Shown here one piece after another: positions 2,291-50,541 of a DNA stretch of 54,547 nucleotides. The notes beneath the pieces are model-generated. The model saw nothing but the letters and a program-made list of their open reading frames with translations, had not been told where the DNA came from and did no database searches. The stretch covers positions 1 to 54,547 of IMG/VR virus record IMGVR_UViG_3300043313_000586; one strand, 5' to 3'. The position numbers and the translations under genes are program-made. The DNA comes from a virus. The stretch's first letter is position 1. Each line of letters starts with the position of its first letter.

Positions 2291-3082
2291 GTGCAAGCAG
2301 CACTTATTCCGCCACGTGGACTTGAAAACTATATTCTGCATTCCACCTTTCATCTGGCACTAGCTATCCCGCAGTGCATGAGTAATTATGACTATACCAA
2401 CGCATACTCTGATGCAGCAACTCGTGGTGACTATATCGTAGTTGACAACGGTGCCGCTGATGGTGGATTGGTTAGTAATGAGGAACTCCTAGATGCTGCC
2501 TTTATGCTTGCGGCTAAGGAGATTGTAGCTCCTGATGTGTTCTACGACAAAGCAGCCACAATTGTTAAGGTGAAGGAGTTCCTTCGTAAGTTCCAACTAC
2601 CCTTGGTTCCATATAAGATTATGGCAGTAGCTCAGGGTACTAGTCCAGCTTCAATCCGTAGGTGCATAGATGTCTATGCTACTCTTCCAGAGATTGACGT
2701 TGTAGGCTTGCCAAAGCATATGCTGACAACTTTGAACGTTAAAGCAGCTAGGCTGGATATGGCTAAGTGGATTGATGAATGCTTTCCGGGCAGATTTCAA
2801 ATTCACATGCTAGGAACTAATCCTGTTTGGCTCAAGGAGATTGTTTCTGTTGCTAAGTATGCACCGTTCGTGCGCTCTGTTGATTCTGCACTACCCTTCA
2901 ACTATGCTCTTGCATCACAAGACCTTGCAATGACTAAACTCGAGCTGACACGTAACCCTGAATACTTTGATCTTGACTGGTCTGAAACAGCTTCCACTAG
3001 GCACGTCAATAATAACATCAAGACATTCATGGGGTGGGCGAATGCAACCAGCGTCAAGGAAACATCCACTTGCGAACTGTGA
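2291..3082 (+). CDS. dpdA: DpdA-like DNA 7-deazaguanine transglycosylase (TGT superfamily)
   Basis: Phage DpdA proteins are short relatives of tRNA-guanine transglycosylase that exchange guanine in DNA for preQ0 or a derivative. The 263-aa product has landmarks in TGT order: an acidic residue in IVAPDVF (D82), the QG of MAVAQGTS (115-116), DVVGLP, HMLG (172-175), and SVDSALP with D198 in the position of the nucleophilic aspartate. The C-terminal zinc site of tRNA enzymes is missing, as in phage DpdA. It starts at a GTG with AAGGAG 8 nt upstream. The pairing with folE in one operon supports the call. Which base is made cannot be told from this window. Confidence 0.8.
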   Translation: MQAALIPPRGLENYILHSTFHLALAIPQCMSNYDYTNAYSDAATRGDYIVVDNGAADGGLVSNEELLDAAFMLAAKEIVAPDVFYDKAATIVKVKEFLRKFQLPLVPYKIMAVAQGTSPASIRRCIDVYATLPEIDVVGLPKHMLTTLNVKAARLDMAKWIDECFPGRFQIHMLGTNPVWLKEIVSVAKYAPFVRSVDSALPFNYALASQDLAMTKLELTRNPEYFDLDWSETASTRHVNNNIKTFMGWANATSVKETSTCEL

Positions 3083-6000
3083 GGCTTGTCCTCTTTTTGA
3101 GAACAAGAATGCCTTTGTACCTACAGAGTTCGCAGAAGCTCCAAAGCTCGTAGTAGTTGGTGAGGCTCCAGGTTATTATGAGACTGCTCAAGGAAGACCC
3201 TTTATGGGTCCCTCAGGACAGCTACTGAATAAAGTTTTGTCTCATAATGGTTATCGAAGAAGGGATATAACATACACAAATGTTTGCTTATGTCGTCCTG
3301 AAGGTAACGCAACTCCTAGTAAAGCTGCGATTAATGCATGTCGTCCACGTCTCATACATGACATCGTACAATCAGGGAAGGCTGGAGCTGAAGACGTCCT
3401 TGCACTTGGTGGGACGGCGGCTTCGGCACTCATTCCAGATGGTAGGACAATCACACATCTCAGAGTCGGGCCGCCAAAGGAGCCCATCCAATCTCTCAGG
3501 GACTCAGGCATTAAAAGAGTTGTCCCGAGCTGGCATCCTGCATATTGCGTTGACCCTGGAACAAAAATCCTCACGGCAGATCTACGTTGGGTAGAAGCAG
3601 GAAGCCTAGAGATTGGTGAAGAACTTATAGGCTTCGACGAGTACCCTAGCGACGCGTCCTTTGCCCGTAGAAAATTCAAACCTACTAAGGTAACTGGAAA
3701 CGAACGTATACGAGCGTCTGTTTGGGAAGTCGAAACTCCTAAGGGTGTAATTACATGTAGTGGTGATCATTTGTGGCTAGCGCGCAAGCGTAAGAAGTAT
3801 TACACGCCGTATGTATGGATAGCCACTATGCACCTAACAGAAGAGTACGATCTCTTCCACTTCATAGATCCTTGGGTAGTTGATGATACCAGAGAAGGCG
3901 GATACGTAGCGGGCTTCTTGGACGGTGAAGGTTGGGTAACACATCCCAATGGCCTCGGATGGGCTCAAAATGATGGAGACGTAGCAGAACAAGTTTGTAA
4001 ACTTGTTGAAGAGAAAGGCTTTACACTTACTAAGGGATACGTAGGTAATTGTGGACGATATTACATGGGAGGTCCACGTGATTCTATCCGTGCCCTTGGA
4101 ATATTTCGACCTGCAAGATTGCTGCCAAAAGCCAACAAGCTTTGGGAGCGACAATGCTCCACCAAGGCTGTACCAGTAGTACGTGTAGAGCCTTTAGGTG
4201 TTGGTGAAGTTATAGCACTCAACACAACTGAACGTACATATATAGCCGAAGGGTTGTTGTCCCATAATTGCCTTAGAACTGCAGATGCATTCCCAGCGCT
4301 CGTTTCAGATATATCCAAGCTGAAGGATGTGAAGAGGAATGCATGGAGTCCTCCTAGATGGAAATACTTTGACGATCCTGCACAGGCCCGATTGGCAATT
4401 CGGGAACTACGAACGAAATACGATCGCCTTGTCGTTGACATTGAGGTCGGTATTGAAAAAGATCTCTCTTTCGGTCACCCAAATGAATACGATCTCCTCT
4501 GCGTGGGCCTTGCATATAAAGCAGGGTCAGCAGTGGTCATTGGGTCTGGTGCACTTACCGACGCTGATGTACTCAATGATCTTAGGGAGCTTTTACAAAA
4601 CGTCAAGCTCATTGCACACAATGGCAAATTTGATTTGGCAGGACTCTATCCCACTCTTGGACCACTTGAACTCTGGTTCGACACAATGCTTGCAAGTTAC
4701 TGTATCGACGAACGTCCGGGAAACCACGGACTTAAAGTTCTTGCAGTGGAAAAGCTTGGAGCCCCTCAGTACGACCTAGAGATTCGAAAGTATGTTCCTA
4801 AGGGTGGTAACTACGCCAATATTCCAAGAGAGCTACTGTATAAGTATAATGCCTATGACGTAGTTTGTACCTGGGACCTCTACGAGATGTTCGTTCCGCA
4901 ACTCGAGAAACCAGGACGTTGGCCTTATACAGATCGTCCAGCTAAGACACTGCGCGATGTTCATGACTTCCTAGTTAAAGCGTCCAACCAACTAATGTAC
5001 CTTGAACTTAATGGCATTACTATTGACAAAGAATATCAACGTGAACTTGGTATCATCTTCCAGGAACGAATTAGTAAGCATGAAGATGCGCTTAACTACA
5101 TTGTTAACAGTTGCTGGTCAGAAGAAGCTGGAGACTTTGTCTTCCAGGCTAACATACAAACTGACGACCGTGAAATAGTCAAGAGCATTAATCCAAGGTC
5201 ACCTAAGCAGATTAAGGAGTTCCTTGCCTCACAGCACCTCCTCGTTGACTCAACGAACGTCGACACTATCAGCAGAGTCATTGAAGGCCTTCAGGGAGAC
5301 ACTCCCGTCAAACGCTTCTGCACAACTCTCCTTCTTCACCGTAGACAACAAAAGCTCTACTCTACATACGTCGATGGAATTAGGAAGCGTACATATAGGA
5401 GACGTGTTTACACAACTTACCTACTCCATGGATCTACATCAGGACGATTGGCATCTCGTAATCCGAATCTCCAGAACATTGTTCGTGACAAGGACATCAG
5501 AAAGCAATTTAGCGTCAGTAACCCTGAAAACGTACTAATCCAATGTGACTATAAAAATGCCGAGCTTAGAGTTATGGCAACTCTAGCTCAGGATGAATAT
5601 CTAAGACATCTGCTTAGCAATCCAGATCCTAACTATAAGTTCTTCAATGAACTATCCGATCAGTTGTATGGTGTAGACAATTGGGATAAGGAAGACTATA
5701 TTCGAACTAAGGCATTCGTTTACGGTATCGGTTATGGTCGAGAGCCTTATTCAATCGGTCTTGAGTTTGGTATGGATAGCAAAGAAGCTAACAGACTATA
5801 CCACAGCTTTATGGATCTGATACCTGCAACTGCTACTTGGCAAGTAGATACACGAAAGAGGGTGCTTGCAGGTGAAGACCTCGTCACTCCTTTCGGCCGT
5901 AGAAGGCGTTTCTACCTTATTACTGAACAGAACAAAAAAGATGTCCTCAATGAGGCTCTGTCGTACCTGCCGCAGAGTACCTCTTCAGACATCTGCCTTT

Positions 6001-6212
6001 CGGCTGCTATCGATCTGCGAACCATGCTCAGAGGCACTGCGTTCCTGCGTCTTCTGATCCACGACGCTATCGTTGCTGAAACACACAAAGATAAAGCGGA
6101 GCAAGTCATAGCAATGATGCAAGAAGTAATGATGGCTAAGGGTAGCGAGTTTACAGACTACGTACCATTTCCTGTCGACGTATCAGTAGGATCACATTGG
6201 GGCAACCTCTAG
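3042..6212 (+). CDS. polA: uracil-DNA glycosylase / DNA polymerase I fusion, interrupted by an intein
   Basis: The replicative polymerase, fused at its N-terminus to a family 4 uracil-DNA glycosylase as known for phage SPO1. The 1056-aa precursor starts at ATG 3042, within the 3' end of dpdA. The UDG part has four cysteines (C13, C16, C84, C100) spaced as in 4Fe-4S family 4 enzymes, plus GEAPG and SWHPAY. An intein spans residues 169-409. The rest holds a DEDDy 3'-5' exonuclease (DIEVG near 465, HNGKFD near 524, YNAYD near 605) and family A polymerase motifs: TSGRLASRNPNLQNI, DYKNAELR near 835, the RTKAFVYGIGYG helix near 889 and IHDAIVAE near 1006. All catalytic acids are present, so the spliced enzyme should be active. 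Confidence 0.95.
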   Translation: MQPASRKHPLANCEACPLFENKNAFVPTEFAEAPKLVVVGEAPGYYETAQGRPFMGPSGQLLNKVLSHNGYRRRDITYTNVCLCRPEGNATPSKAAINACRPRLIHDIVQSGKAGAEDVLALGGTAASALIPDGRTITHLRVGPPKEPIQSLRDSGIKRVVPSWHPAYCVDPGTKILTADLRWVEAGSLEIGEELIGFDEYPSDASFARRKFKPTKVTGNERIRASVWEVETPKGVITCSGDHLWLARKRKKYYTPYVWIATMHLTEEYDLFHFIDPWVVDDTREGGYVAGFLDGEGWVTHPNGLGWAQNDGDVAEQVCKLVEEKGFTLTKGYVGNCGRYYMGGPRDSIRALGIFRPARLLPKANKLWERQCSTKAVPVVRVEPLGVGEVIALNTTERTYIAEGLLSHNCLRTADAFPALVSDISKLKDVKRNAWSPPRWKYFDDPAQARLAIRELRTKYDRLVVDIEVGIEKDLSFGHPNEYDLLCVGLAYKAGSAVVIGSGALTDADVLNDLRELLQNVKLIAHNGKFDLAGLYPTLGPLELWFDTMLASYCIDERPGNHGLKVLAVEKLGAPQYDLEIRKYVPKGGNYANIPRELLYKYNAYDVVCTWDLYEMFVPQLEKPGRWPYTDRPAKTLRDVHDFLVKASNQLMYLELNGITIDKEYQRELGIIFQERISKHEDALNYIVNSCWSEEAGDFVFQANIQTDDREIVKSINPRSPKQIKEFLASQHLLVDSTNVDTISRVIEGLQGDTPVKRFCTTLLLHRRQQKLYSTYVDGIRKRTYRRRVYTTYLLHGSTSGRLASRNPNLQNIVRDKDIRKQFSVSNPENVLIQCDYKNAELRVMATLAQDEYLRHLLSNPDPNYKFFNELSDQLYGVDNWDKEDYIRTKAFVYGIGYGREPYSIGLEFGMDSKEANRLYHSFMDLIPATATWQVDTRKRVLAGEDLVTPFGRRRRFYLITEQNKKDVLNEALSYLPQSTSSDICLSAAIDLRTMLRGTAFLRLLIHDAIVAETHKDKAEQVIAMMQEVMMAKGSEFTDYVPFPVDVSVGSHWGNL
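3546..4268 (+). other. intein with LAGLIDADG motif, inside the UDG active-site motif
   Basis: A 241-aa protein-splicing element. It begins with Cys1 (CVDPGTKILTADLRW, block A), has a block B of the TxxxH type (GVITCSGDHLW), and ends with a block F/G of YIAEGLLSHN followed by Cys+1. The middle holds YVAGFLDGEGWV, a single LAGLIDADG-type motif. No clear second copy is visible, so the homing endonuclease may be monomeric-type or decaying. Excision joins SWHPAY to CLRTAD, restoring the HPAxxLR motif that family 4/5 glycosylases need. The polymerase part is therefore produced only in frame through the intein. Confidence 0.93.
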
Positions 6213-7240: not shown

Positions 7241-7336
7241 GTAAAAAGACATAGTTAGACTTTAGTAAGACTTAAGTTTACATATAGCTAAATACCTTTA
7301 CATAGCTAGAAAATTTCTCAAGTCTTACTAAAGTCT
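7241..7336 (+). repeat. intergenic structured element, copy A
   Basis: One of four full copies in this window. It begins with GTAAAAAGACATAGTTAG, then a left arm AGACTTTAGTAAGACTT (7257-7273). The loop contains ATATAGCTAAATACC, and a right arm at 7320-7336 is perfectly complementary to the left over 17 nt. It begins 7 nt after the stop of the HNH-like gene and points in the direction of transcription. There is no T-tract after the right arm, so it is not a simple terminator. Confidence 0.8.
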
Positions 7337-7403
7337 CACATTAACTTCTAAATTCCTATCTATGATAACCTCCAGTAGCAAGACTCCACAGGGGCTTAGA
7401 GAG

Positions 7404-8747: not shown

Positions 8748-8759
8748 CCACTAGAGAAA

Positions 8760-8813
8760 GATAGACCCTGGCATTGAGGGATGATCCGTGAAGGACCAAT
8801 GCCAGGGTCTATC
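8760..8813. terminator. 16-bp perfect hairpin between converging gene blocks
   Basis: GATAGACCCTGGCATT (8760-8775) and its exact complement (8798-8813) enclose a 22-nt loop. The hairpin lies between the ends of the plus-strand and minus-strand gene blocks. It can fold from either strand and is best read as a bidirectional terminator or 3' stabiliser. No strong T-tract is present, so termination efficiency is uncertain. Confidence 0.75.
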
Positions 8814-8816
8814 TGT

Positions 8817-9281
8817 CTATTCCGAAGGCTTTGACATCCTTGTGCCGTTGACGCTTACCATCTCGCGTAATTGTTCAATAGTAGCGTATGGACTCAAGAT
8901 TGCCGCTGTGAGCCTCCGCATAAGATATAGGGATTCATCCGAGGACCTTCGCGCTTCTGTTGCTTCCCTCTGAGCCTGAGCTGCTTCACGTCTAGCTTCC
9001 GCAGCTTCCATACGCGCCTGGTTAACTTCCTTCCTGGATTCCTCTCTAGCTTGAACAAGCTCCGCTCGAGCAATTTTGACTTGTTCACCTGCGGCTTCGA
9101 TCGATCTCTCTGCATCGTTCCGAACGGTCTCGATGATGCTATTAGCTGATTGGGCTAACTTTGCCGCAGCGTCAGCATTCGTCGTTTTGCGTTGTAGAAC
9201 CGCTTTTACGATTTGGGTGATACCATACAGCGCCGCGCCCCCGAAGCCGGCGCCAAATACGGTACCCCAGTCAAAGGCCAT
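8817..9281 (-). CDS. membrane-anchored coiled-coil protein, 154 aa
   Basis: Residues 5-30 (WGTVFGAGFGGAALYGITQIV) form one membrane segment. They are followed by about 95 residues of Ala/Glu/Arg-rich coiled coil with heptad repeats (AEARREAAQAQREATEARR). A short C-terminal domain follows. The ATG at 9281 has AGGTGA upstream; a longer form from 9302 is possible. It closes the lysis cluster downstream of a multi-pass membrane protein, so it could act in lysis, for example by bridging membrane and wall, but there is no recognisable spanin signature. Confidence 0.65.
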   Translation of the reverse strand: MAFDWGTVFGAGFGGAALYGITQIVKAVLQRKTTNADAAAKLAQSANSIIETVRNDAERSIEAAGEQVKIARAELVQAREESRKEVNQARMEAAEARREAAQAQREATEARRSSDESLYLMRRLTAAILSPYATIEQLREMVSVNGTRMSKPSE

Positions 9282-9707: not shown

Positions 9708-10499
9708 TTACTCCTCAACAGGTCCAAAGGTTAGCGTTCCACCAGTAACATTGGCAGTTCCTACAACTGGAGTAGAGCCACCGTCAGTAGCAGGTTTGAC
9801 AAGAGGTCCACCACCCTTAAGAAGCGATGGCATGTCAGGGTACTCCAGAAGGGGAACTCCTGCAGCTTTAAGCGGTCCACCAGTGAGTCCCCACTGACCT
9901 TCCGGAAGAGGACGTGTGTTGAGTCCATCCGAGATGTAGATTGACGGGTTCTGGTCACCGATTACTTTCAGCATAAACATATCTATGGATCCCTTCACGT
10001 ATTGCCGGAAGAACCTCTGGACCAATGGTGCCAATGGTTTGTTTTCAGCGTCACGGAACCGACTGCAGTGAGAATGCTTCAAGTGTGACTTATCACCACT
10101 ATTTCGCTTCTTCAGTCGATCCCAACGCTTAACATTTACACCATCAGGAGTGTAGATAAACGACCGAATGTCAAGAGTGTCAGGTGCCCCAGCTTCGAGC
10201 TCCTTTACCATCCATAGATTGAAATCTATCAAGGTCACACGCTTGCCACCGATTACCTTGTCGAACCACCCAAAGTCGATAGCAGAAGCTGCATTCGTCT
10301 TGTGGCTCCAATCCCGAGAAGACTCTTCCCAGGAGTAATCATTTAGTTGGCCGTTTGAGATCCTGCGATTATCCCAACCCTGATGATAACCACCATCGTG
10401 AGCCGTATCACCTACGATGCCGACTTCGACATCAGGTAAGCCTGTATACTCTTGATATACATGACGTGTATCTAGCAACGTTCTAGGAGCATAGGACAT
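9708..10499 (-). CDS. M15-like peptidase, probable endolysin
   Basis: Expected to cut peptide cross-links of the host wall. The 263-aa product has a pattern like M15 zinc peptidases: SHKTNAASAIDFG at 65-77 gives the SxH...AxD motif (H66, D75), and SHLKHSH at 138-144 supplies a downstream histidine. Residues 1-60 are GYHQGWDNRR-containing and compatible with this fold. The C-terminal 60 residues are Gly/Pro/Thr-rich, possibly a linker or wall-binding tail. Neighbouring holin-like genes on both sides support a lysis role. The metal-ligand assignment is by eye. Confidence 0.65.
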   Translation of the reverse strand: MSYAPRTLLDTRHVYQEYTGLPDVEVGIVGDTAHDGGYHQGWDNRRISNGQLNDYSWEESSRDWSHKTNAASAIDFGWFDKVIGGKRVTLIDFNLWMVKELEAGAPDTLDIRSFIYTPDGVNVKRWDRLKKRNSGDKSHLKHSHCSRFRDAENKPLAPLVQRFFRQYVKGSIDMFMLKVIGDQNPSIYISDGLNTRPLPEGQWGLTGGPLKAAGVPLLEYPDMPSLLKGGGPLVKPATDGGSTPVVGTANVTGGTLTFGPVEE

Positions 10500-19139: not shown

Positions 19140-19239
19140 CTTAGACTTTAGTAAGACAATCAGATACATACGACCCTCAGTTGGGTATTTAACCTATATG
19201 AATTGTTAGTCTTACTAAAGTCTAAGCATGTCTTTTTAC
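19140..19239 (-). repeat. intergenic structured element, copy B
   Basis: A minus-strand copy of the element at 7241-7336. The arms (19140-19157 and 19209-19226) are complementary over 18 nt, the loop carries TTCATATAGGTTAAATACCC on the minus strand, and the conserved GTAAAAAGAC flank lies at 19239-19230. It begins 8 nt after the stop of the major tail protein and precedes the tail assembly chaperone. In siphoviruses expression has to drop sharply at this junction. Confidence 0.8.
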
Positions 19240-29194: not shown

Positions 29195-32188
29195 CTAGTA
29201 TGTCACGTATACTGCAACCACATTTGCGTCAGGATGCCCTCTAGGCGGAACACCTACTGAAGCATTTCCGTATACTTCACCAGTGTGTTTAACACGTAGA
29301 ATTGGATCACTATTGGATGCTATACCAACAATTATAGCAGGACGACGCTTTACATAGGTAGTATTGCCTGCTACAGTCTTCTGTAGCAAGTAAACCCTAT
29401 GCCTATTTACTGTGCCCATGGAAATACTCCCAGGTAGCGTTATCGGCTGAGCAGTATCAAGTTCTGTAACCATCCCCACCAGTGCACGAAGCTTAGGCTG
29501 TATGGCCCTCGCAGTATCTGTTTCGGTTACCTGGTTAACAGTTCGAATATACCTACGCACAATGGCAAATGCTGTATTGGTCTCAGTTACTTGTCCAATG
29601 AGTTTGATTTTCTTACGTGTAATTGGTTGGCTTGTATCAGTTTCAGTTACTTGAACAACAGCAACAGTTTTCTTCCTACTAATGGACTGTGCGGTATTCG
29701 TCTCAATAACCTGTGTAACTGTCTTGCTTTTTCTGCGAGTAATTGGTTGACTTGTATCAGTTTCTGTAATCTGGCCAACCGCTTTAGTCTTTCGAACTGT
29801 AATTGATTGACTTGTATCAGTTTCAATTACTTGATTCACTACCCGAGCAGCACCTACGACTGTAATAGATTGACTTGTATCAGTCTCAGTAATCTGTCCG
29901 ATCAGTTTAGCTTTGCGCCTATTGAACGGTTGTGCTGTGCTTGTTTCCGTAACCTGCCCAATAAGTTTAGTTTTCTTGCGAGTAATTGCCTGACTTGTAT
30001 CAGTTTCAGTAACCTGTATGACTGTTTTAGCTTTACGTACTGTGATTGACTGACTTGTATCAGTTTCAGTTACTTGTCCAACGGTCTTTGTCTTTTTCCG
30101 TGTGATTGCTTGGCTTGTATCTGTTTCCGTTACTTGACCAATTGCTTTGGTTTTCCGAGCTGTGATTGACTGGCTTGTATCTGTTTCCGTTACACGAGCA
30201 ACAAGCCTAACATGCTTCCATGCAATGCTCTGAGCTGTATTAGTTTCTGTAACTTGTGTGACGCTTCTAGTTTTTCGTACCGTTATAGGCTGTGCTGTAT
30301 CTACTTCTGTAACTTGTCCATTGATTTTGCGCTTGTTCCTAGTAATAGCATGTGCTGTACTAGTTTCAACTACCTGCGTAACAGCAATAAATTTAGGTAC
30401 AAATACACGAGTAATCGATTGTGCTGTATCTGTTTCAGAAGCCTGGCCTATGATACGTGCTTTAACCCTGGTTATCGTTTGAGCTGTATCAGTCTCTGTA
30501 ACTTGACCAATAAGCTTCTGTTTGATCTTCGCAATAGGCTGTGCTGTATCGGTTTCTGTAACTTGGCCAATGGTTATGGCTTTGCGTTTGGTAATAGATT
30601 GTGCTGTATCTGTCTCTACAACCTGTCCGATTGTATTACGTTTACCACCCGTTATGGGCTGAGCTGTATTAGTTTCCGTAACCTGACCAACTGCTACAGT
30701 CTGTCCACCACCTGCAGGCACAGGCAGAATTTCAACGTATACCCAAGCCAAGTTTGTTGAAACAGCATTAGGAAATACATCGATACGCTGCGAAACGGTG
30801 TTAACATCGTCAGGAATAAGTCGCTTGAAGAATCCAAAGGACATTACAGATGGAATCTGGAATGCTGATTTAGATTCAGCTACATAGCAGTCAATACCTG
30901 CTCTAGGAACACCTGTATTATCCCAATCACACAAGGCAAGGAAGCCTTGTCCACCATTACCCTGTGCGGTATAAGCCTGCGAAATGTGTGTAGTTGAAGC
31001 TGAACCAGCCTTACCATGCGCTCCAACTGGTGTCGTTGCATGTTGACCAGTTAGTACCAAAACCTGCAAACCTGCTGCACGATCACCCGATATAGCAGAG
31101 TTGGACACTGAAACTGTCATTGGTGCAGATGTAGTTACGGGCGCTGTCCAAGCTGCTGCCTGACCATCACGAGTAGGTGCATCAGCTCGTGACTGCCAAT
31201 CAGTCAATGTATAAGTTAGGTGCGCACCTAGACTGTCAGTGATAGTCGGTGAAGATGGTCCAGATGCGGTAGATGTGTTACCAGCCCACAAAACCAATAG
31301 TAACGACCCAGCAGGTGGCGTAAACGTTGCAGTAGTTGCTGCTGCTGTTGCACCGACTGCCTGAACAACCATATCTGGTGTTGATTCGTGAATACGTAGT
31401 TTTGTGTCAACAGGCCCGGCGTTAGCAGTTCCCAGCCATGGATTCCGCACACCGTTAGGTGTCAGGCCTTCACCTGGAGCATGCCAGTTAATGTAAGGTG
31501 GTGGATCTTTCTCTGCTGGATCACCAACGAACGGAATGATCTCAATGTATGCCCAAGTTAGATCAGTGCTAGTACCAGGCAGATTAACATTAAGAGTAGA
31601 CAGTCCACCAATTGCATCGTCTGGGTTAGTTCGTCGACCAAATCCGTAAGAGAACAGGCCACCTACATAAGTACCAGAAGCATCCATCGTGAACTGTGAC
31701 CCAGCTGTTTCAGTCCCAACAGCACTCCAGTCACAAGTAACCATGAAGCCTTGTGCATCGTCGGCCGCGGCTGTATACGACTGTGCAATCGCATTCGCCG
31801 AAGCCGACGAGCCTATACCATGCGTACCAACATAAGAAACTGCTGCACCATACAGCACGTACACCTTAACTGCTGTATGTCTATCTGTATTGTCATTGTT
31901 AGTAACTGTTACCGTCATAGCTGCACTAGTGACTACATCGGCAGTCCAGATAGCACACTGACCTTCACGGCCAGTTACCGAGTGCTCGCCCCACTCATGA
32001 CGGGTGTAAGTTAGATGAACACCAAGATTATCGGTAACCGACGGCTGTGGTGGGTCTACTGCCGTTCCAGTGTTACCGGAAAACATAACCAACAGTGTGG
32101 ATCCTGTTGGTGGTGTAAAGCTAGCTGTCGTAGCTGAAGGGCTACCTGTAACGGCCGCAGGTGTCGACGGATCGATAACAAGCGCCAC
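29195..32188 (-). CDS. large repeat-containing fibre protein, 997 aa
   Basis: Likely a virion fibre or surface appendage. It has two copies of a roughly 220-residue beta domain (near 1-215 and 270-490; both contain ATTAxFTPPxGS, NTxTA, LGxHLTYT and similar). These are followed by 21 tandem 20-residue repeats of the type GQVTETDTAQPIT plus a basic linker (RRKxK), and a C-terminal domain (VYLLQKTVAGNTTYVKRRPA) with a strand-rich end. The repeats alternate acidic/Thr and basic blocks, which suggests a long fibrous shaft. It is encoded beside head genes rather than after the tape measure. Confidence 0.78.
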   Translation of the reverse strand: MALVIDPSTPAAVTGSPSATTASFTPPTGSTLLVMFSGNTGTAVDPPQPSVTDNLGVHLTYTRHEWGEHSVTGREGQCAIWTADVVTSAAMTVTVTNNDNTDRHTAVKVYVLYGAAVSYVGTHGIGSSASANAIAQSYTAAADDAQGFMVTCDWSAVGTETAGSQFTMDASGTYVGGLFSYGFGRRTNPDDAIGGLSTLNVNLPGTSTDLTWAYIEIIPFVGDPAEKDPPPYINWHAPGEGLTPNGVRNPWLGTANAGPVDTKLRIHESTPDMVVQAVGATAAATTATFTPPAGSLLLVLWAGNTSTASGPSSPTITDSLGAHLTYTLTDWQSRADAPTRDGQAAAWTAPVTTSAPMTVSVSNSAISGDRAAGLQVLVLTGQHATTPVGAHGKAGSASTTHISQAYTAQGNGGQGFLALCDWDNTGVPRAGIDCYVAESKSAFQIPSVMSFGFFKRLIPDDVNTVSQRIDVFPNAVSTNLAWVYVEILPVPAGGGQTVAVGQVTETNTAQPITGGKRNTIGQVVETDTAQSITKRKAITIGQVTETDTAQPIAKIKQKLIGQVTETDTAQTITRVKARIIGQASETDTAQSITRVFVPKFIAVTQVVETSTAHAITRNKRKINGQVTEVDTAQPITVRKTRSVTQVTETNTAQSIAWKHVRLVARVTETDTSQSITARKTKAIGQVTETDTSQAITRKKTKTVGQVTETDTSQSITVRKAKTVIQVTETDTSQAITRKKTKLIGQVTETSTAQPFNRRKAKLIGQITETDTSQSITVVGAARVVNQVIETDTSQSITVRKTKAVGQITETDTSQPITRRKSKTVTQVIETNTAQSISRKKTVAVVQVTETDTSQPITRKKIKLIGQVTETNTAFAIVRRYIRTVNQVTETDTARAIQPKLRALVGMVTELDTAQPITLPGSISMGTVNRHRVYLLQKTVAGNTTYVKRRPAIIVGIASNSDPILRVKHTGEVYGNASVGVPPRGHPDANVVAVYVTY
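29437..30698 (-). repeat. 21 tandem 60-bp coding repeats in the fibre gene
   Basis: The repeat unit is about 60 bp, encoding 20 residues with core QVTETDTxQxIT followed by a Lys/Arg-rich linker. Units differ by conservative changes (QVTETNTAQ, QVIETDTSQ, QITETDTSQ). The core DNA is more conserved than the linker DNA. Copy number could vary between isolates through recombination. Confidence 0.9.
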
Positions 32189-35397: not shown

Positions 35398-35426
35398 TTG
35401 AGGATCTTGAAAAAGGATGATATAAT
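35398..35426 (+). promoter_or_regulatory. rightward sigma70-type promoter for the GATC island
   Basis: TTGAGG (35398-35403), a 17-nt spacer and a consensus TATAAT (35421-35426). The early transcribed region contains AGCAG and CTGCT segments that recur after the second promoter at 37910. It would express the inverted-repeat cassettes. Confidence 0.7.
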
Positions 35427-35577
35427 ATAGTTGATAGAGCAGAAAAAAGATATAGATACTCCAGCTGCTATATCGGATTAATCAACGCGATCGGATGGAG
35501 CCGATAAGGTTGATTGAGACAAGTTCGTTGATAAATCACCCAGCTCGGCTCACGCCGATCGTATAGCTAGGAAGATA
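35427..35577 (+). other. leader of the GATC island without a gene
   Basis: About 150 nt between promoter and first cassette. It holds several short complementary pairs (TCAAC with GTTGA near 35482/35510, CGG with CCG) and dense GATC/CGAT words but no ORF with a ribosome-binding site. It looks like a structured mRNA leader. Confidence 0.4.
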
Positions 35578-35912
35578 GGGTCGATCATCTTCTAGATCGC
35601 CTAATCGGTAGATCAATCACTCAATCCGATAAGGGAGATTAAGATGATCCAGAACATCACGTCGATCGAGAAGATCGAGCAGCTTATCGCTCAAGGAAAA
35701 GGCGATCAGGTAACCGAGGCGCTCGGGTTGATTAGCAACCCAATCCAGGCGATCTGCACAAGCTGCTATATCGAACTAATCGAAAATGGCGATGCAGTCG
35801 ATCCAGACGCCATAAGCATCGTAACCGACCAGGACGCTTGCGAATTCGATCACGAGGCTTAATCAGCTCAAGTAGTTAAGATCGATTAGGCGATCCAGAA
35901 GATGATCGATCC
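35578..35912. repeat. inverted repeat enclosing cassette 1
   Basis: Left arm 35578-35607 and right arm 35883-35912 are complementary over 30 nt apart from one A-C mismatch and one G-U pair (core GATTAGGCGATC...AGAAGATGATCGA on the right arm). They enclose one ORF, 35644-35862, with the ribosome-binding site inside the loop. Confidence 0.85.
35644..35862 (+). CDS. cassette 1 protein, CxxC motif, 72 aa
   Basis: ATG 35644 with AAGGGAG upstream. The product has an amphipathic N-terminus (SIEKIEQLIAQGKGDQVTEA), then CTSCYIELIENGDAV and an acidic C-terminus with a further Cys and His (DACEFDHEA), so a zinc knuckle is likely. Isoleucine and aspartate codons are nearly all ATC and GAT/GAC, which contributes to GATC density. 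Function unknown. It is the first of seven ORFs with private inverted repeats. Confidence 0.7.
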   Translation: MIQNITSIEKIEQLIAQGKGDQVTEALGLISNPIQAICTSCYIELIENGDAVDPDAISIVTDQDACEFDHEA

Positions 35913-35916
35913 GAAT

Positions 35917-36232
35917 CTAGATCACCCCGATGATCCCTTCATCCGATGTAGTAATCAAGCAATCAATCGAATGGAGAGATCATGAATCAAATCGAGGCGA
36001 TCCGCCAACTCACCCAGGTTGACGCATTCGAGATAGGCTACCACCGCGTCTGGATCTGCTCAGACTGCATGAACGCTATCATCGATGACGAAGAGCAAGC
36101 CGCTCAGATCGATCTAGGGCTCATCAAGATCAACGATGATATCGCCAGGTGCGATATAATCGATCTAATCGAGGGCCACGAGTACGCCGCTTAAGTAGTT
36201 AAGCGGATGGAGGGATCATCAGGGTGATCTAG
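35917..36232. repeat. inverted repeat enclosing cassette 2
   Basis: Left arm 35917-35945 and right arm 36204-36232, 29 nt with two differences (right arm starts CGGATGGAGGGATCATC). The left arm begins 5 nt after the right arm of cassette 1. Encloses ORF 35982-36194. Confidence 0.87.
35982..36194 (+). CDS. cassette 2 protein, CxxC motif, 70 aa
   Basis: ATG 35982 with GGAGAG upstream. The product includes FEIGYHRVWICSDCMNAIID, a CxxC preceded by a His and Trp, and an acidic C-terminal half (IKINDDIARCDIIDLIEG) with a third Cys. Probably a small metal-binding protein. The stop is in the GCTTAA context shared by five cassettes. Confidence 0.7.
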   Translation: MNQIEAIRQLTQVDAFEIGYHRVWICSDCMNAIIDDEEQAAQIDLGLIKINDDIARCDIIDLIEGHEYAA

Positions 36233-36269
36233 ATCATTGGTTAAGTAAGCACATTGCTCATGAGGAGCA

Positions 36270-36683
36270 AGATACTTGAGCTGATTAAGCTGCTCGATCT
36301 TCGAATCAATCAATCGATTAGGAGATCAAGATGGCTAAGCGATCAAGCGCAAAAGCGATCCTCGGTAAGCAATCAAGCGTCTACGGTAAGGTCAGCCGCT
36401 CAACCGCTCGAATCCACCACATCGATGGATCGAGCAAGAAAGAAGCGAGCAGGTTGCCTAGGATCAAGGCGCTCAGGAGCTGGACGATCAACAAGAACAG
36501 CTTCGTCAGCGAGGACATGCAAGACGCTCAAGCGGAGAAAGCAATGAATCCACATGGTTGGACCAAGCGACGTAATCCGATCTGCTCGAGCTGCTTTATC
36601 CAGAAAGCGCTCAACGGATCATGTGGATGTAACGCTTAATCAGTAGCTTAAGAGATCGAGCAGCTCAACCAGCTCAAGTATCT
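36270..36683. repeat. inverted repeat enclosing cassette 3
   Basis: Left arm 36270-36300 and right arm 36653-36683, 31 nt with two differences (right arm AGATCGAGCAGCTCAACCAG...). Encloses ORF 36331-36639 only. Confidence 0.87.
36331..36639 (+). CDS. cassette 3 protein, basic with C-terminal CxxC / CxC, 102 aa
   Basis: ATG 36331 with AGGAGATC upstream. The N-terminal 60 residues are Lys/Arg/Ser-rich (MAKRSSAKAILGKQSSVYGK). The C-terminus has ICSSCFIQKALNGSCGCNA, a likely zinc-binding group, so this may be a nucleic-acid-binding protein. The stop context is AACGCTTAATC. No family is recognised. Confidence 0.7.
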   Translation: MAKRSSAKAILGKQSSVYGKVSRSTARIHHIDGSSKKEASRLPRIKALRSWTINKNSFVSEDMQDAQAEKAMNPHGWTKRRNPICSSCFIQKALNGSCGCNA

Positions 36684-36684
36684 A

Positions 36685-37018
36685 GATCCTGATCATCTTG
36701 ATGATCTCTTCATCGTAATCCACACGATCAAGGAGATCATCATGAGTCGCTTCATCGCAGATCCAAACTATGTCGAGCAGGTCTACCGAGCAATCGAGAT
36801 GGACAACCCGAACGATCCGGCCGAGGAAATGGATTTGGTAGCTATAGCCGAGGTGGCTAACTACCTCCAGGCGAACGATTACGAGCCGTTCGAGCTAGTC
36901 AGCCAAGACAAGCCAATCGGCATGGCCTACTTCCTCTACGACGCAATCAAGTGGACTAACGCCAACAAGTAGATAGGTAGCTCCAAGCGATGGAGAGATC
37001 ATCAAGATGATCAGGATT
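36685..37018. repeat. inverted repeat enclosing cassette 4
   Basis: Left arm 36685-36715 and right arm 36988-37018, 31 nt with two differences (right arm CGATGGAGAGATCATCAAG...). Adjacent to the cassette 3 right arm (1-nt gap). Encloses ORF 36742-36972. Confidence 0.87.
36742..36972 (+). CDS. cassette 4 protein, acidic, 76 aa
   Basis: ATG 36742 with AAGGAG upstream. Acidic helical protein (VEQVYRAIEMDNPNDPAEEM, IAEVANYLQANDYEPFELV) without Cys pairs. Its shape resembles small phage anti-host proteins that mimic nucleic acid, but there is no specific evidence. It is the cassette ORF without a GCTTAA stop context apart from cassette 7. Confidence 0.65.
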   Translation: MSRFIADPNYVEQVYRAIEMDNPNDPAEEMDLVAIAEVANYLQANDYEPFELVSQDKPIGMAYFLYDAIKWTNANK

Positions 37019-37423
37019 GATCACAACTATCCTCCAGATCACCTGATCGGCTCAAGTACTTACTCAAAGGAGACGATCATGGAGATCACGGTAACCAGGA
37101 CGTACAAGATCGACCTCGACATCGACCAGGCTCACTACGACGAGCTGAACGAGGAAGGCAACCTGACCGATTTGATCGACACAATCACCTACACCTGTGA
37201 TGGTGGCGATCTGAGCGGCACGATGCACCTAGTCCACATCGTCAACAACGAGAACAGCAACATAAACCACATGGCTTGGTCGGTCGATGTAGACGATTGG
37301 TACAGCCCAGGCACCACGAGCACCGTAATCGATTCGGTTAACTTCGAAGTCGAGGATCAAGGGATCAACGCTTAATCCGATCTAGCAACAACCGATCGGG
37401 TGATCCGGTGGATAGTTGTGATG
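37019..37423. repeat. inverted repeat enclosing cassette 5
   Basis: Left arm 37019-37050 and right arm 37392-37423, 32 nt with four differences (right arm CCGATCGGGTGATCCGG...). It starts directly after the cassette 4 right arm. Encloses ORF 37079-37375. Confidence 0.85.
37079..37375 (+). CDS. cassette 5 protein, 98 aa, paralogue of the gene at 48513
   Basis: ATG 37079 with AAAGGAG upstream. The sequence MEITVTRTYKIDLDIDQAHY, DLSGTMHLVHIV, and the C-terminal NFEVEDQG resemble the 100-aa product at 48513-48815 (VTQSYRVTL, DLSDTMYLID, EFEVEDAG). A beta-rich, acidic protein. The paralogue lies outside the GATC island and lacks its codon bias. Function unknown. Confidence 0.7.
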   Translation: MEITVTRTYKIDLDIDQAHYDELNEEGNLTDLIDTITYTCDGGDLSGTMHLVHIVNNENSNINHMAWSVDVDDWYSPGTTSTVIDSVNFEVEDQGINA

Positions 37424-37813
37424 TAGTACCCATTGTTCAACTAGATCGCCTGATCAGATCAATCGCTATCAAAGGAGAGATCATGGATCAAGACGATCAG
37501 CGCGACTACACCGAGGAAGAGTTCAACCGCCAAATCGATAAGGACGAGGTGGACGATAACAACTTCCTCGACTGGCTCAAGGAGATCAACGTAGCAGGTA
37601 AGCGCTACATCTGTCCTAGCCACATAGGCGGTTGGGTGATGACCACCCCGGACGGCTCAAGCGACACATTCGCGGTAGTCGACGAAGTCTTCAGGGTCAA
37701 GCAAGAGGGGATCACCCGGAGCTTCGTAATCGACAAGGACAAGTGCATCTTCTGTAACGCTTAATCAGATCACAATCTGATCGGGCGATCTAGAGGACAA
37801 TGGGCACTACATC
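37420..37813. repeat. inverted repeat enclosing cassette 6
   Basis: Left arm 37420-37459 and right arm 37775-37813, about 40 nt with a short mismatched bulge (right arm starts ATCTGATCGGGCGATCTAG). The left arm overlaps the cassette 5 right arm by 4 nt. Encloses ORF 37483-37764. Confidence 0.87.
37483..37764 (+). CDS. cassette 6 protein, 93 aa, C-terminal CxxC
   Basis: ATG 37483 with AAAGGAG upstream. Acidic N-terminus (MDQDDQRDYTEEEFNRQIDK), then a beta-rich middle with ICPSHIGGWVM and C-terminal DKCIFCNA. The CPSH and CIFC pairs could form one zinc site. The stop context is AACGCTTAATC as in cassettes 3 and 5. No family is recognised. Confidence 0.7.
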   Translation: MDQDDQRDYTEEEFNRQIDKDEVDDNNFLDWLKEINVAGKRYICPSHIGGWVMTTPDGSSDTFAVVDEVFRVKQEGITRSFVIDKDKCIFCNA

Positions 37814-37886
37814 AAGATCCGTAATCGGATTAAGCGATGGATCGCTAATGAGACGATCATCTAATTTAGATCAGCTGTTTGCCTCA

Positions 37887-37915
37887 GTTTTAAGATCCGG
37901 ATCTTGATATATAAT
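37887..37915 (+). promoter_or_regulatory. second rightward promoter candidate with palindromic operator
   Basis: A consensus TATAAT at 37910-37915 with a weak TTTT-type -35 region. The spacer contains the perfect 14-bp palindrome AAGATCCGGATCTT (37892-37905). A symmetric site inside a promoter spacer is typical of a repressor operator. Downstream, TAGCAGC/GCTGCTA can form a hairpin like that after the promoter at 35398. Confidence 0.55.
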
Positions 37916-38007
37916 AGATATAGCAGCAAAAAATACTACAGCTGCTACAGCAGATATGTAATCCATCAGTCTGCTCATATGTTCTTTGACAACTTAAGCA
38001 GGTAGGT

Positions 38008-38534
38008 CTTGATCCTTCCTCGATCCTGTCGATTGATATCTCAATCTGTTCAGCTCAATCCAATCAATCGCAAGATCTCAACAGGAGGAATCATGTCCAA
38101 GATCCAGATCGATGTCATCGAGTTCGCTGCCCAGCGCGTCCTGGCCAACTTCGGCGAGGACCTCAAGGCGAGCGAGATCCGCGATGCAGCCAACGTCGTG
38201 CTCAAGGCCTTCTCGGTCGAGAAGATCGGCGAGGACGACGAGTTGGTGGAGTACCAGGTCACTCAGAACATGATGACCAACTACATCATCAACGGTAGGA
38301 TCGATGGGGCGAAGCGCAAGTCAGCCGCTCAGGTCCGCATCGCCAACGCAGACGTCGAGGCTTTCATCATCAAGTTCGTTGACGCTCGCGTCAATGGCAC
38401 TCAGGGCAAGAGGAACAACGTGGACGCGCTGGCCGAGTCGCTCAAGGGTGAGTTGGCTGAGATGGTCGAGTCCGCCGAGTAAGACCTCTAGGTAAGACAA
38501 CGCACTGAGTCGATGGGATCGAGGAAGGTTCAAG
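38008..38534. repeat. inverted repeat enclosing cassette 7
   Basis: Left arm 38008-38032 and right arm 38510-38534, 25 nt with three differences (right arm TCGATGGGATCGAGGAAGG...). Encloses ORF 38093-38482. This is the last gene of the island with the long-range arrangement. Confidence 0.8.
38093..38482 (+). CDS. cassette 7 protein, helical, 129 aa
   Basis: ATG 38093 with CAGGAGGAATC upstream, the strongest ribosome-binding site of the island. A helical protein (QIDVIEFAAQRVLANFGEDL, ASEIRDAANVVLKAF) with a basic middle (GRIDGAKRKSAAQVR). It is richer in G+C than the flanking regions. It is preceded by its own promoter candidate. Function unknown. Confidence 0.7.
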   Translation: MSKIQIDVIEFAAQRVLANFGEDLKASEIRDAANVVLKAFSVEKIGEDDELVEYQVTQNMMTNYIINGRIDGAKRKSAAQVRIANADVEAFIIKFVDARVNGTQGKRNNVDALAESLKGELAEMVESAE

Positions 38535-38573
38535 ATCTATCATCAAGGTGGATCAAGGCAAGAAGGAGAGATC

Positions 38574-38882
38574 ATGCGGATGGGGCTCGCTTCAGCGACT
38601 ATCGGAGTCGTGTTGAGCATCACTAACGCGTGCCAATCACCCACGACAACTCACCAGCCTGAGCTGATCGTGCAGTCCGGGATCAACTGTTTCGAGGAAG
38701 ATGTCGTGCTCCCTCTAGCGTGCAACGTAGGTCCCCAGGGCGAACCGTTGCTCGGGCAGTGCCCCGCCGAGGACGACGCGATCGATGGAACCGAGGGTCC
38801 GGAGTGCTACTGGTACGAGCCGGACGGCTCAGGCGTCATGTACAACGATGGATCAGGATACATCGCTCCTAAGAGTAGGTAG
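38574..38882 (+). CDS. putative exported lipoprotein, Cys-rich, 102 aa
   Basis: ATG 38574 with AAGGAGAG upstream. The N-terminus MRMGLASATIGVVLSITNAC looks like a short lipoprotein signal ending at Cys20, though the lipobox (TNAC) is imperfect. The rest is acidic with several Cys (NCFEEDVV, LACNVG, GQCPAED, PECYWYE), which would suit an oxidised extracellular domain. If exported it could act at the host surface, for example in superinfection exclusion. This is inference from the signal only. Confidence 0.55.
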   Translation: MRMGLASATIGVVLSITNACQSPTTTHQPELIVQSGINCFEEDVVLPLACNVGPQGEPLLGQCPAEDDAIDGTEGPECYWYEPDGSGVMYNDGSGYIAPKSR

Positions 38883-44068: not shown

Positions 44069-44257
44069 ATGTTCGATGTAGTGATCAGTGTTGCAGGCGT
44101 CATTATCGATGACGAGAACAATGGCTACACAACTACGCAGGTCTTCAGACTCGACCTGGAAGGCAACAGCCAAGAAGTAATCGACGAGTTCGTAGCACAC
44201 ATCAAGGAGCTCCGCGGTGTCGTACACGTCGAGCAGTTGGTAGCTAAGCCTGTGTAA
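44069..44257 (+). CDS. hypothetical protein, 62 aa
   Basis: ATG 44069 with AAGGAG upstream. A compact alpha/beta sequence (MFDVVISVAGVIIDDENNGY, EVIDEFVAHIKELRGVVHVE). It lies 2 nt after CILG protein 1 and its stop codon is part of the outer helix of leader RE2. No family is recognised. Confidence 0.65.
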   Translation: MFDVVISVAGVIIDDENNGYTTTQVFRLDLEGNSQEVIDEFVAHIKELRGVVHVEQLVAKPV

Positions 44258-44323
44258 AGATTTTGAGCGGTACATACCTTTTAACCACATAGATTACTTG
44301 GTATGTACCAATCAAAACCTTTA
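44255..44323 (+). ncRNA. structured leader RE2
   Basis: Outer helix TAAAGATTTTGA (44255-44266)/TCAAAACCTTTA (44312-44323), one mismatch. Inner helix GGTACATACC (44269-44278)/GGTATGTACC (44300-44309), 10 bp. The outer left strand begins at the stop codon of the previous gene; the ribosome-binding site AAGGGAG lies just after the right strand. Confidence 0.78.
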
Positions 44324-44341
44324 ATCAGAAGGGAGCAATAA

Positions 44342-45375: not shown

Positions 45376-45477
45376 ATGTCGAACCCTGGAGGCCCAACTC
45401 CTCCGCCGACTCCGTATCCAGCACCTCCACCTCCCCCGCCGACCCCCATTCCGGGTCCACCTCCGTTCAAGGAGTAA
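45376..45477 (+). CDS. polyproline microprotein, 33 aa
   Basis: ATG 45376 with AAGGAG upstream. The product has 18 prolines in 33 residues, in runs of three and six (PAPPPPPPTPIPGPPPFKE). Translation would stall without elongation factor P. It is flanked on both sides by structured leaders (RE4, RE5), whose outer strands reach its start region and stop codon. It may be a ribosome-stalling leader peptide or a protein-binding proline ligand. Confidence 0.68.
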   Translation: MSNPGGPTPPPTPYPAPPPPPPTPIPGPPPFKE

Positions 45478-45548
45478 AGGTTTAGCACAGCCCTCACCTA
45501 TTTAATTTACATGCAGTCCTTAGGTGAGGGCTGTTCAAAGCTTTTACT
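45474..45548 (+). ncRNA. structured leader RE5
   Basis: Outer helix AGTAAAG (45474-45480)/CTTTTACT (45541-45548). Inner helix CAGCCCTCACCTA (45488-45500) with its exact complement (45521-45533), 13 bp. The left outer strand contains the stop of the polyproline ORF. The ribosome-binding site AAGGAG follows at once. Confidence 0.8.
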
Positions 45549-47928: not shown

Positions 47929-47955
47929 TAGATATATTCAAATGTTAGTCGTTTG

Positions 47956-48030
47956 TGCTGAACAAAGCTCCACAGGGCGATAGAGACTTGGTTCGAATAG
48001 AAAAACAAACCCTGGAAAAGTTTTGTTCAG
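47956..48030 (+). ncRNA. structured leader with CTCCACAGGG motif
   Basis: CTGAACAAA (47958-47966) pairs with TTTGTTCAG (48022-48030), and inside it AGGG (47974-47977) can pair with CCCT (48010-48013). The loop holds AGCTCCACAGGGC and a GGTTCGAAT word. The ribosome-binding site AAGGAG of the 154-aa gene follows. Confidence 0.62.
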
Positions 48031-48055
48031 TGCAATCCTCTAACAAGGAGAGTAT

Positions 48056-48520: not shown

Positions 48521-48815
48521 TCCGATTCTGGTAACACAGAGCTACAGGGTTACGCTTAAGGGTAGCGCTGAAGAGATCAAGCAAGACCTGTTGGACTTGA
48601 GCCAAAGCTTCGATTACATGCTTGACTGCATCTGTCAGAGTCCTGACCTTAGCGATACTATGTACCTTATCGACACTTCAGGTGATATCGAGTGGTTCAC
48701 TGATAAGGAATTCGACGCAAGCTTTACAGAAGAGTTCAAAAAGCTCGATGTCACTGTTCTCTACAAGGTAGAATTCGAAGTCGAGGATGCAGGTTTCGAG
48801 ATTCGCATAGTGTAA
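48513..48815 (+). CDS. hypothetical protein, paralogue of cassette 5, 100 aa
   Basis: ATG 48513 overlaps the previous stop. The product (VTQSYRVTLKGSAEEIKQDL, DLSDTMYLIDTSGDIEWF, VEFEVEDAGFEIRIV) matches the order of motifs of the 98-aa product at 37079-37375. Acidic and beta-rich. The C-terminus is complete. Function unknown. Confidence 0.68.
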   Translation: MSDPILVTQSYRVTLKGSAEEIKQDLLDLSQSFDYMLDCICQSPDLSDTMYLIDTSGDIEWFTDKEFDASFTEEFKKLDVTVLYKVEFEVEDAGFEIRIV

Positions 48816-48835
48816 TGTCCTAAGTTTGCTCAAAG

Positions 48836-48872
48836 AGCCGGAGCAGAAGATTACAGCCCTGTGGAGCTTTGA
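48836..48872 (+). ncRNA. hairpin with inverted CTCCACAGGG motif
   Basis: GCTCAAAG (near 48835-48842) pairs with CTTTGAGC (near 48866-48873), enclosing GCCCTGTGGAG. The 15-nt GCCCTGTGGAGCTTT (48856-48870) is the exact reverse complement of 47964-47978, so the two motifs bracket the two genes between them. Confidence 0.65.
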
Positions 48873-48909
48873 GCATTCTTACAACATTAACTCGAATCTA
48901 GGAGTTTAT

Positions 48910-50228: not shown

Positions 50229-50475
50229 GAGCACCAAGTATATTGTACCTGTATATGGGGTTCGTGAGGAGATACCACAGAGCTACTCTGCAACGCTAGA
50301 CATGCCTGATGGTACCACCAAAACAGTAGCCTGGGGCCCTGAGAACTGGTACAAAGCGCTTAAAGACTTCCAAGATAAGTACATGCAAGACGGCTCTGTG
50401 CTGCATGCACTGGTAATCAATAGCAACACAGGTGATTTTGTAGCAGAGTGTTGGTGGCATCCTAAGAAGCCTTAG
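50197..50475 (+). CDS. hypothetical protein, 92 aa
   Basis: ATG 50197 with AAGGTG upstream. A lysine run at the N-terminus (MVKQMKKKKPKSTKY) precedes a strand-rich region (SATLDMPDGTTKTVAWGPEN, ALVINSNTGDFVAECWWHPK). Its stop codon lies in the left outer strand of leader RE6. No family is recognised. Confidence 0.62.
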   Translation: MVKQMKKKKPKSTKYIVPVYGVREEIPQSYSATLDMPDGTTKTVAWGPENWYKALKDFQDKYMQDGSVLHALVINSNTGDFVAECWWHPKKP

Positions 50476-50541
50476 TTTCGTCAGTTACATATCCAGATTG
50501 ACCTTATGGTTCTTTTAGATATGTAACTGCCAAACCTAAGG
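50470..50541 (+). ncRNA. structured leader RE6
   Basis: Outer helix CCTTAGTTT (50470-50478)/AAACCTAAGG (50532-50541, one bulge). Inner helix CAGTTACATATC (50482-50493) with its exact complement (50518-50529), 12 bp. The right outer strand overlaps the ribosome-binding site AAGGAGG (50538-50544), so folding would hide it. Confidence 0.8.

Follow-up and report, generated by a model that had tools for sequence, protein, structure and literature searches.

In a 54,547-base virus record (IMGVR_UViG_3300043313_000586; this whole stretch is the window of our analysis), seven consecutive small open reading frames (ORFs) are each enclosed by their own inverted repeat, and promoter-like motifs and elements resembling the boxA of bacterial rRNA (rrn) operons precede them. 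We think it likely that in this layout, which recurs in related phages, a protein-coding transcript follows the design of a bacterial rRNA operon, with boxA antitermination and a leader-trailer helix for each ORF that is probably cut by host RNase III. An earlier note on this DNA had described the inverted repeats and missed what best explains their layout, namely the shared promoter-like motif and the rrn-type boxA in the leader. Since the window carries terminase, portal, major head and tape measure genes, its gene content assigns it to a tailed phage.

Seven ORFs are enclosed by private inverted repeats

Each of the seven ORFs was confirmed to have a private inverted repeat, with arm pairs at the positions first proposed or a few nucleotides off, and cassettes 3 to 6 are packed arm to arm, as the earlier note said. 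While most of the original coordinates hold, the arms of cassette 3 (36260-36300/36653-36693) and cassette 7 (38003-38032/38510-38539) are longer than described. The elements are as follows.

35403..35432, + strand: promoter-like element of array 1, GATCTTGAAAAA-N6-TATAATATAGTT, conserved in relatives
35523..35540, + strand: boxA-like element of array 1, GTTCGTTGATAAATCACC, 55 nt 5′ of the first arm, 15/20 versus the rrn boxA consensus
35578..35607, + strand: cassette 1, 5′ arm, partner 35883-35912
35644..35862, + strand: cassette 1, ORF of 72 aa, no known family
35883..35912, + strand: cassette 1, 3′ arm, partner 35578-35607
35915..35945, + strand: cassette 2, 5′ arm, partner 36204-36234
35982..36194, + strand: cassette 2, ORF of 70 aa
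36204..36234, + strand: cassette 2, 3′ arm, partner 35915-35945
36260..36300, + strand: cassette 3, 5′ arm, partner 36653-36693, with an A.C mismatch pair flanking 2 bp
36331..36639, + strand: cassette 3, ORF of 102 aa, MAKRSS family, orthologues in G001 and G002
36653..36693, + strand: cassette 3, 3′ arm, partner 36260-36300
36686..36715, + strand: cassette 4, 5′ arm, partner 36988-37017
36742..36972, + strand: cassette 4, ORF of 76 aa, orthologue of the C-terminal portion of a G002 cassette protein of 130 aa
36988..37017, + strand: cassette 4, 3′ arm, partner 36686-36715
37020..37050, + strand: cassette 5, 5′ arm, partner 37392-37422
37079..37375, + strand: cassette 5, ORF of 98 aa
37392..37422, + strand: cassette 5, 3′ arm, partner 37020-37050
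37419..37459, + strand: cassette 6, 5′ arm, two paired segments, partner 37775-37814
37483..37764, + strand: cassette 6, ORF of 93 aa
37775..37814, + strand: cassette 6, 3′ arm, partner 37419-37459
37900..37919, + strand: second promoter-like element, GATCTTGATATATAATAGAT, of the same motif class as in array 1
37981..38001, + strand: boxA-like element of cassette 7, GTTCTTTGACAACTTAAGCAG, beginning 22 nt 5′ of the arm, 15/20 versus the rrn consensus
38003..38032, + strand: cassette 7, 5′ arm, partner 38510-38539
38093..38482, + strand: cassette 7, ORF of 129 aa, family present in most phages with the enclosed-ORF layout
38510..38539, + strand: cassette 7, 3′ arm, partner 38003-38032

The stem of cassette 6 is split in two (37419-37436/37797-37814 and 37441-37459/37775-37793), and the genes that directly follow cassette 7, from 38574-38882 onward, are without such a stem.

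Local complementarity between the 100-nt flanks of the seven ORFs scored 20 to 28.5, as compared with dinucleotide-shuffle means of 7.2 to 7.8 (standard deviation ∼1.1, maximum 13.5), and true cross-pairs between the arms of different cassettes scored at most 15; high off-diagonal scores for the pairs (4,2), (5,3) and (6,4) are due to flanks overlapping a neighbor's arm. When the whole region was shuffled, the seven inverted repeats observed compared with none in 200 dinucleotide shuffles at the same threshold, and with 0.005 per shuffle when 12-mer blocks, and with them the GATC-rich words, were kept. The predicted minimum-energy fold of the entire 2.4-kb array 1 transcript contains every stem, with mean pair probabilities of 0.61 to 1.00, and the predicted stem of cassette 7 reaches 0.93, which agrees with the earlier suggestion that each ORF would sit in a closed mRNA loop.

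The layout recurs in part of a phage family

Enclosed ORFs were found in ∼14 related IMG/VR virus records, from which we catalogued 42 stems with a median arm of 31 nt, each around an ORF (48 to 155 aa) that is codirectional with the promoter. The arms are ∼190 to 570 nt apart and sit just outside the ribosome-binding site (RBS) and the stop codon, leaving both free, and up to six cassettes follow in a row behind one boxA. Relatives identified through the large terminase carry the layout in five cases (G001, G002, G003, G005 and L020), with G002 showing six consecutive cassettes mostly packed arm to arm, and a small-terminase scan added three more (L104, L107 and L122). The layout was not found in nine longer, more distant relatives, nor in several small-terminase relatives whose records include kilobases of upstream DNA; the latter absence indicates that it is a feature of part of the family. 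The same scan of 681 kb of other phage DNA returned two inverted repeats.

Among named phages, the closest matches to the large terminase are 33 to 35% identical (Arthrobacter and Microbacterium phages). Neither the DNA of the seven-cassette region nor the two cassette proteins that were queried matched a named phage, and Wollypog, Krampus and Shrew (first 50 kb) are without arrays of such inverted repeats. Rfam gave zero matches in the window at gathering thresholds, the enclosed units being ORFs with no 16S, 23S or 5S rRNA encoded; two sub-threshold matches (E ∼0.1) were judged implausible. A search of the open-access literature found no phage precedent for the enclosed-ORF layout.

The arms covary and carry a sense-strand mismatch signature

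Nine comparisons of orthologous stems, in which the register was set on the 5′ arm alone, provided 278 aligned pairs. Although 171 of these are the same in both orthologues, 72 have changed on both sides with pairing kept, as opposed to 11 one-sided changes that kept pairing and 18 pairs that were lost or gained; the few that remain are mismatched in both orthologues. A clear example is cassette 1 of L089 compared with that of L224, where seven of 28 pairs show two-sided changes, none shows a one-sided pair-keeping change and a central C.A mismatch is common to both. These compensatory changes bear out the earlier proposal that pairing itself is selected, and show the helices, which are well supported, to be conserved paired elements.

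By eye, we had spotted a recurrent motif at the center of the stems, and then tested it: A.C mismatches flanking exactly 2 bp occur in 11 stems, with 1.0 expected and none of 5,000 permutations as high. In 10 of these stems the motif lies within 2 nt of the stem center, the 5′ arm mostly reading 5′-CUNA. The mirror form, G.U flanking two pairs, was seen in a single stem. If the arms mattered as DNA, the mismatch and its mirror image would be expected equally often, so the ratio of 11 to 1 points to stems that act as sense RNA. Of the two L224 stems, fetched after the motif had been noticed, one shows it. RNase III makes a staggered cut that leaves a 2-nt 3′ overhang, and the exact 2-bp spacing of the central mismatches would suit such a cut by a symmetric enzyme.

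A promoter-like motif and an rrn-type boxA precede the arrays

Arrays are preceded by the promoter-like motif GATCTTGAAAAA-N5/6-TATAATATAGTT and a boxA-like element. The 8-nt spacer between TTGAAA and TATAAT in array 1 means that this element does not read as a canonical sigma70 site. Searched alone, without reference to stems, in 2.9 million viral contigs, the promoter pattern matched nine viral loci, all nine with enclosed ORFs directly downstream. Five new phages (L089/L090, L093, L094, L095 and L096) came from this search, and a looser pattern added L224 with two more stems. A side observation concerns GATCAGCTGTTTGCCT, which is conserved 5′ of the second promoter in two phages (window ∼37869-37890 and L078 ∼9880-9900) and is perhaps a regulator site.

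In the arrays examined, the boxA-like element follows the promoter motif and precedes the first arm, starting 19 to 27 nt 5′ of the arm in most leaders. Examples are GTTCTTTGATAACTAAACAGCG in G005 and G003, GTTCCTTGAAAACTAAACAGTGTG in L104, GTTCATTGACAACTTAATAG in G001 (twice) and the element of cassette 7 in the window. Scored against the rrn consensus, the leader boxA ranks first or joint first in 13 of 15 loci and fifth in L095, and the two window elements are joint second among 109,094 window positions. This consensus was partly derived from the phages themselves, hence we performed an outside test in prokaryote genomes. Whereas a first, narrower pattern gave no matches, the phage boxA pattern, which the 20-mers of G005 and L104 fit, produced 77 matches in 85,000 genomes; in 55 of these a 16S rRNA gene starts 62 to 350 nt downstream, and most of the others lie near contig ends.

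In the complete rrn loci used as controls, boxA lies within or adjoins the leader arm of the 16S helix. The 16S leaders of some Actinomycetota and related records (rrn loci L138, L145, L151, L170, L176, L179, L181 and L192) have a boxA that is complementary to the trailer and would thus itself be paired inside the leader-trailer helix.

A proposed model of individually looped messages

In Escherichia coli, RNase III cleaves the rRNA leader-trailer helices, and boxA, which recruits NusB/S10, suffices for assembly of the antitermination complex (PMC10250234). By analogy, the conserved phage promoter would give rise to a transcript with a boxA leader, on which the host Nus antitermination complex would be loaded. 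A helix of ∼30 bp, unique in sequence to each ORF, would then enclose the ORF together with its RBS, and with both arms outside the translated part it need not be melted by ribosomes. Host RNase III would most likely cut each helix near its center, leaving one message per gene with paired ends. From these arrangements we infer Nus binding and RNase III cleavage, and as their benefit separate stable messages obtained from one Rho-escaping transcript. On the fuller proposition that a phage lineage adopted the rRNA operon design as a whole, with boxA-modified polymerase, individually looped messages and host RNase III cutting at a dedicated central mismatch site to yield monocistronic mRNAs with closed ends, we are evenly divided.

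Several findings weigh against this interpretation. In the more distant phages G009 and G010, no helix encloses the homologue of the cassette-7 gene, and in G010 the leader has kept a boxA and contains a local hairpin; the earlier note had named related phages with the same genes but no complementary flanks as evidence to the contrary, and to this extent such phages exist. Over all stems, G.U does not significantly exceed A.C (50 versus 41, P = 0.40); an excess (50 versus 19) emerges only once the central motif is removed, a post hoc step, and a plain G.U excess was accordingly dropped as proof of RNA pairing. Both boxA elements of the window are imperfect, at 15/20. Neither RNase III nor NusB was found when we looked for them among the genes of these phages, so the factors that would act must be assumed to come from the host. 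Finally, two-sided changes outnumber one-sided ones beyond what stepwise compensation would lead one to expect.

Alternative explanations

This last imbalance speaks for an explanation in which the arms are kept complementary during replication, by gene conversion or template switching from one arm to the other, without any RNA function. We nevertheless regard this explanation as very improbable, because it accounts neither for arms that always frame an ORF nor for the preceding promoter and boxA, and because such correction would erase the strand-specific central mismatch pair. Quite improbable, too, is the idea of cassettes as mobile DNA, with the inverted repeats as the termini of units able to move, be excised or be inverted. 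In its favor, G005 has a whole cassette of 106 aa (L062 992-1406) where the near relative G003 has 8 nt, AGGCTTCC, between flanks that are 94.6% and 97.1% identical. From this one presence/absence pair it follows that cassettes can come or go as units, as the earlier note had thought possible, albeit without a target-site duplication; gain or loss as a unit would be allowed by any unit with its own RNA ends. The notion of an invertible unit fared worse: no inverted copies were seen, all catalogued ORFs pointing away from the promoter, and no common terminal sequence for a recombinase was found, the arms differing between cassettes and between phages. Moreover, cassettes always occur in promoter-boxA arrays, and the mismatches in their stems bear a signature peculiar to the sense strand. 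In near relatives (L062 2030-2072 and L082 11347-11573), an unrelated small hairpin at the same spot and ∼185 nt make the difference between otherwise similar flanks.

Helices that function in the RNA but stay uncut, such that the closed loop keeps RNases off the message or links its stop to its start, are an unlikely alternative. Stems that are predicted to fold and that leave RBS and stop codon free would be in line with it, and the same sequence evidence fits any sense-RNA function; what it leaves unexplained is the recurrent central mismatch pair and also boxA, which in rrn operons is coupled with processing helices. As to a chance or low-complexity artefact, GATC is indeed ∼8-fold over-represented around the cassettes, and only there (57 in the 2 kb of window 36001-38000 versus 7.5 expected). 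However, cross-pair, dinucleotide and word-preserving shuffle tests rule this candidate out, and phages whose words are quite different share the layout, which leaves the candidate next to no credence.

Relation to known systems

The proposed rRNA-like transcript shares with bacterial rrn operons the leader boxA, its position beside the leader arm, the long helix around each product and the tandem arrangement. It differs in that the phage units are ORFs of 48 to 155 aa with RBSs instead of rRNA, that the loops are ∼190 to 570 nt and as many as six of them follow a single boxA, and that each helix has its own sequence, often with a central A.C mismatch pair.

Antitermination elements in phage leader RNA are known from the lambdoid nut and HK022 put sites, and lambda nut has a boxA, but the boxA described here is of the rrn type and tied to enclosing helices. 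Similarly, host RNase III divides the polycistronic early mRNA of T7 into smaller messages, albeit at local intercistronic hairpins, whereas the arms in the present phages are ∼190 to 570 nt apart with a gene between them. Integron cassettes and terminal-inverted-repeat elements are likewise tandem single-gene units bounded by inverted repeats; the phage cassettes, in contrast, lack a shared repeat and a recombinase site, showed no target duplication in the one presence/absence pair, and have an RNA-strand signature.

Long-range helices enclosing a product, combined with boxA, are known from ribosomal RNA, and the same pair around phage protein genes would mean that this architecture is a portable device for gene expression. 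A question that thereby becomes testable is whether RNA is processed by boxA antitermination and leader-trailer helices jointly, independent of ribosome assembly. As a tool, a short synthetic array with one reporter per loop would offer a simple way to obtain several separate mRNAs from one promoter.

Cassette proteins and other sequence features

Pfam and PHROG searches of the cassette proteins gave nothing reliable. The cassette-7 family has a predicted fold of five helices (mean pLDDT 85) that found no PDB match with E <0.15, which leaves an early guess of a winged helix unsupported. A scan made with this family brought up no relatives, probably owing to divergence of the confirming sequence. 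The 130-aa G002 protein related to cassette 4 (L081 1896-2288) consists of the orthologue extended by a further domain at the N terminus, which gives it the look of two fused cassettes.

GATC richness is also seen in the arrays of L089, L093-L096 and L064; in those of other phages, different words abound (CGGATA/CGGACATA and AATCGG/AACCGG), also within ORFs. Elsewhere in the window, mostly intergenic local hairpins with arms of 22 to 29 nt and loops of 20 to 49 nt lie at 7254-7339, 8755-8818, 19140-19226, 44250-44328, 45473-45548, 47943-48045, 48813-48889 and 50470-50541; two of them have TTAGACTTTAGTAAGAC in common, and they may be processing sites or terminators. The window further contains a DNA polymerase A-like ORF with an intein-like insertion (2967-6212; CVDPGTKILTADLRWVEAGS...LLSHNC) and, at 29195-32188, a structural-region ORF with many tandem copies of a ∼20-residue motif of the VTETDTAQ/SITRRK type.

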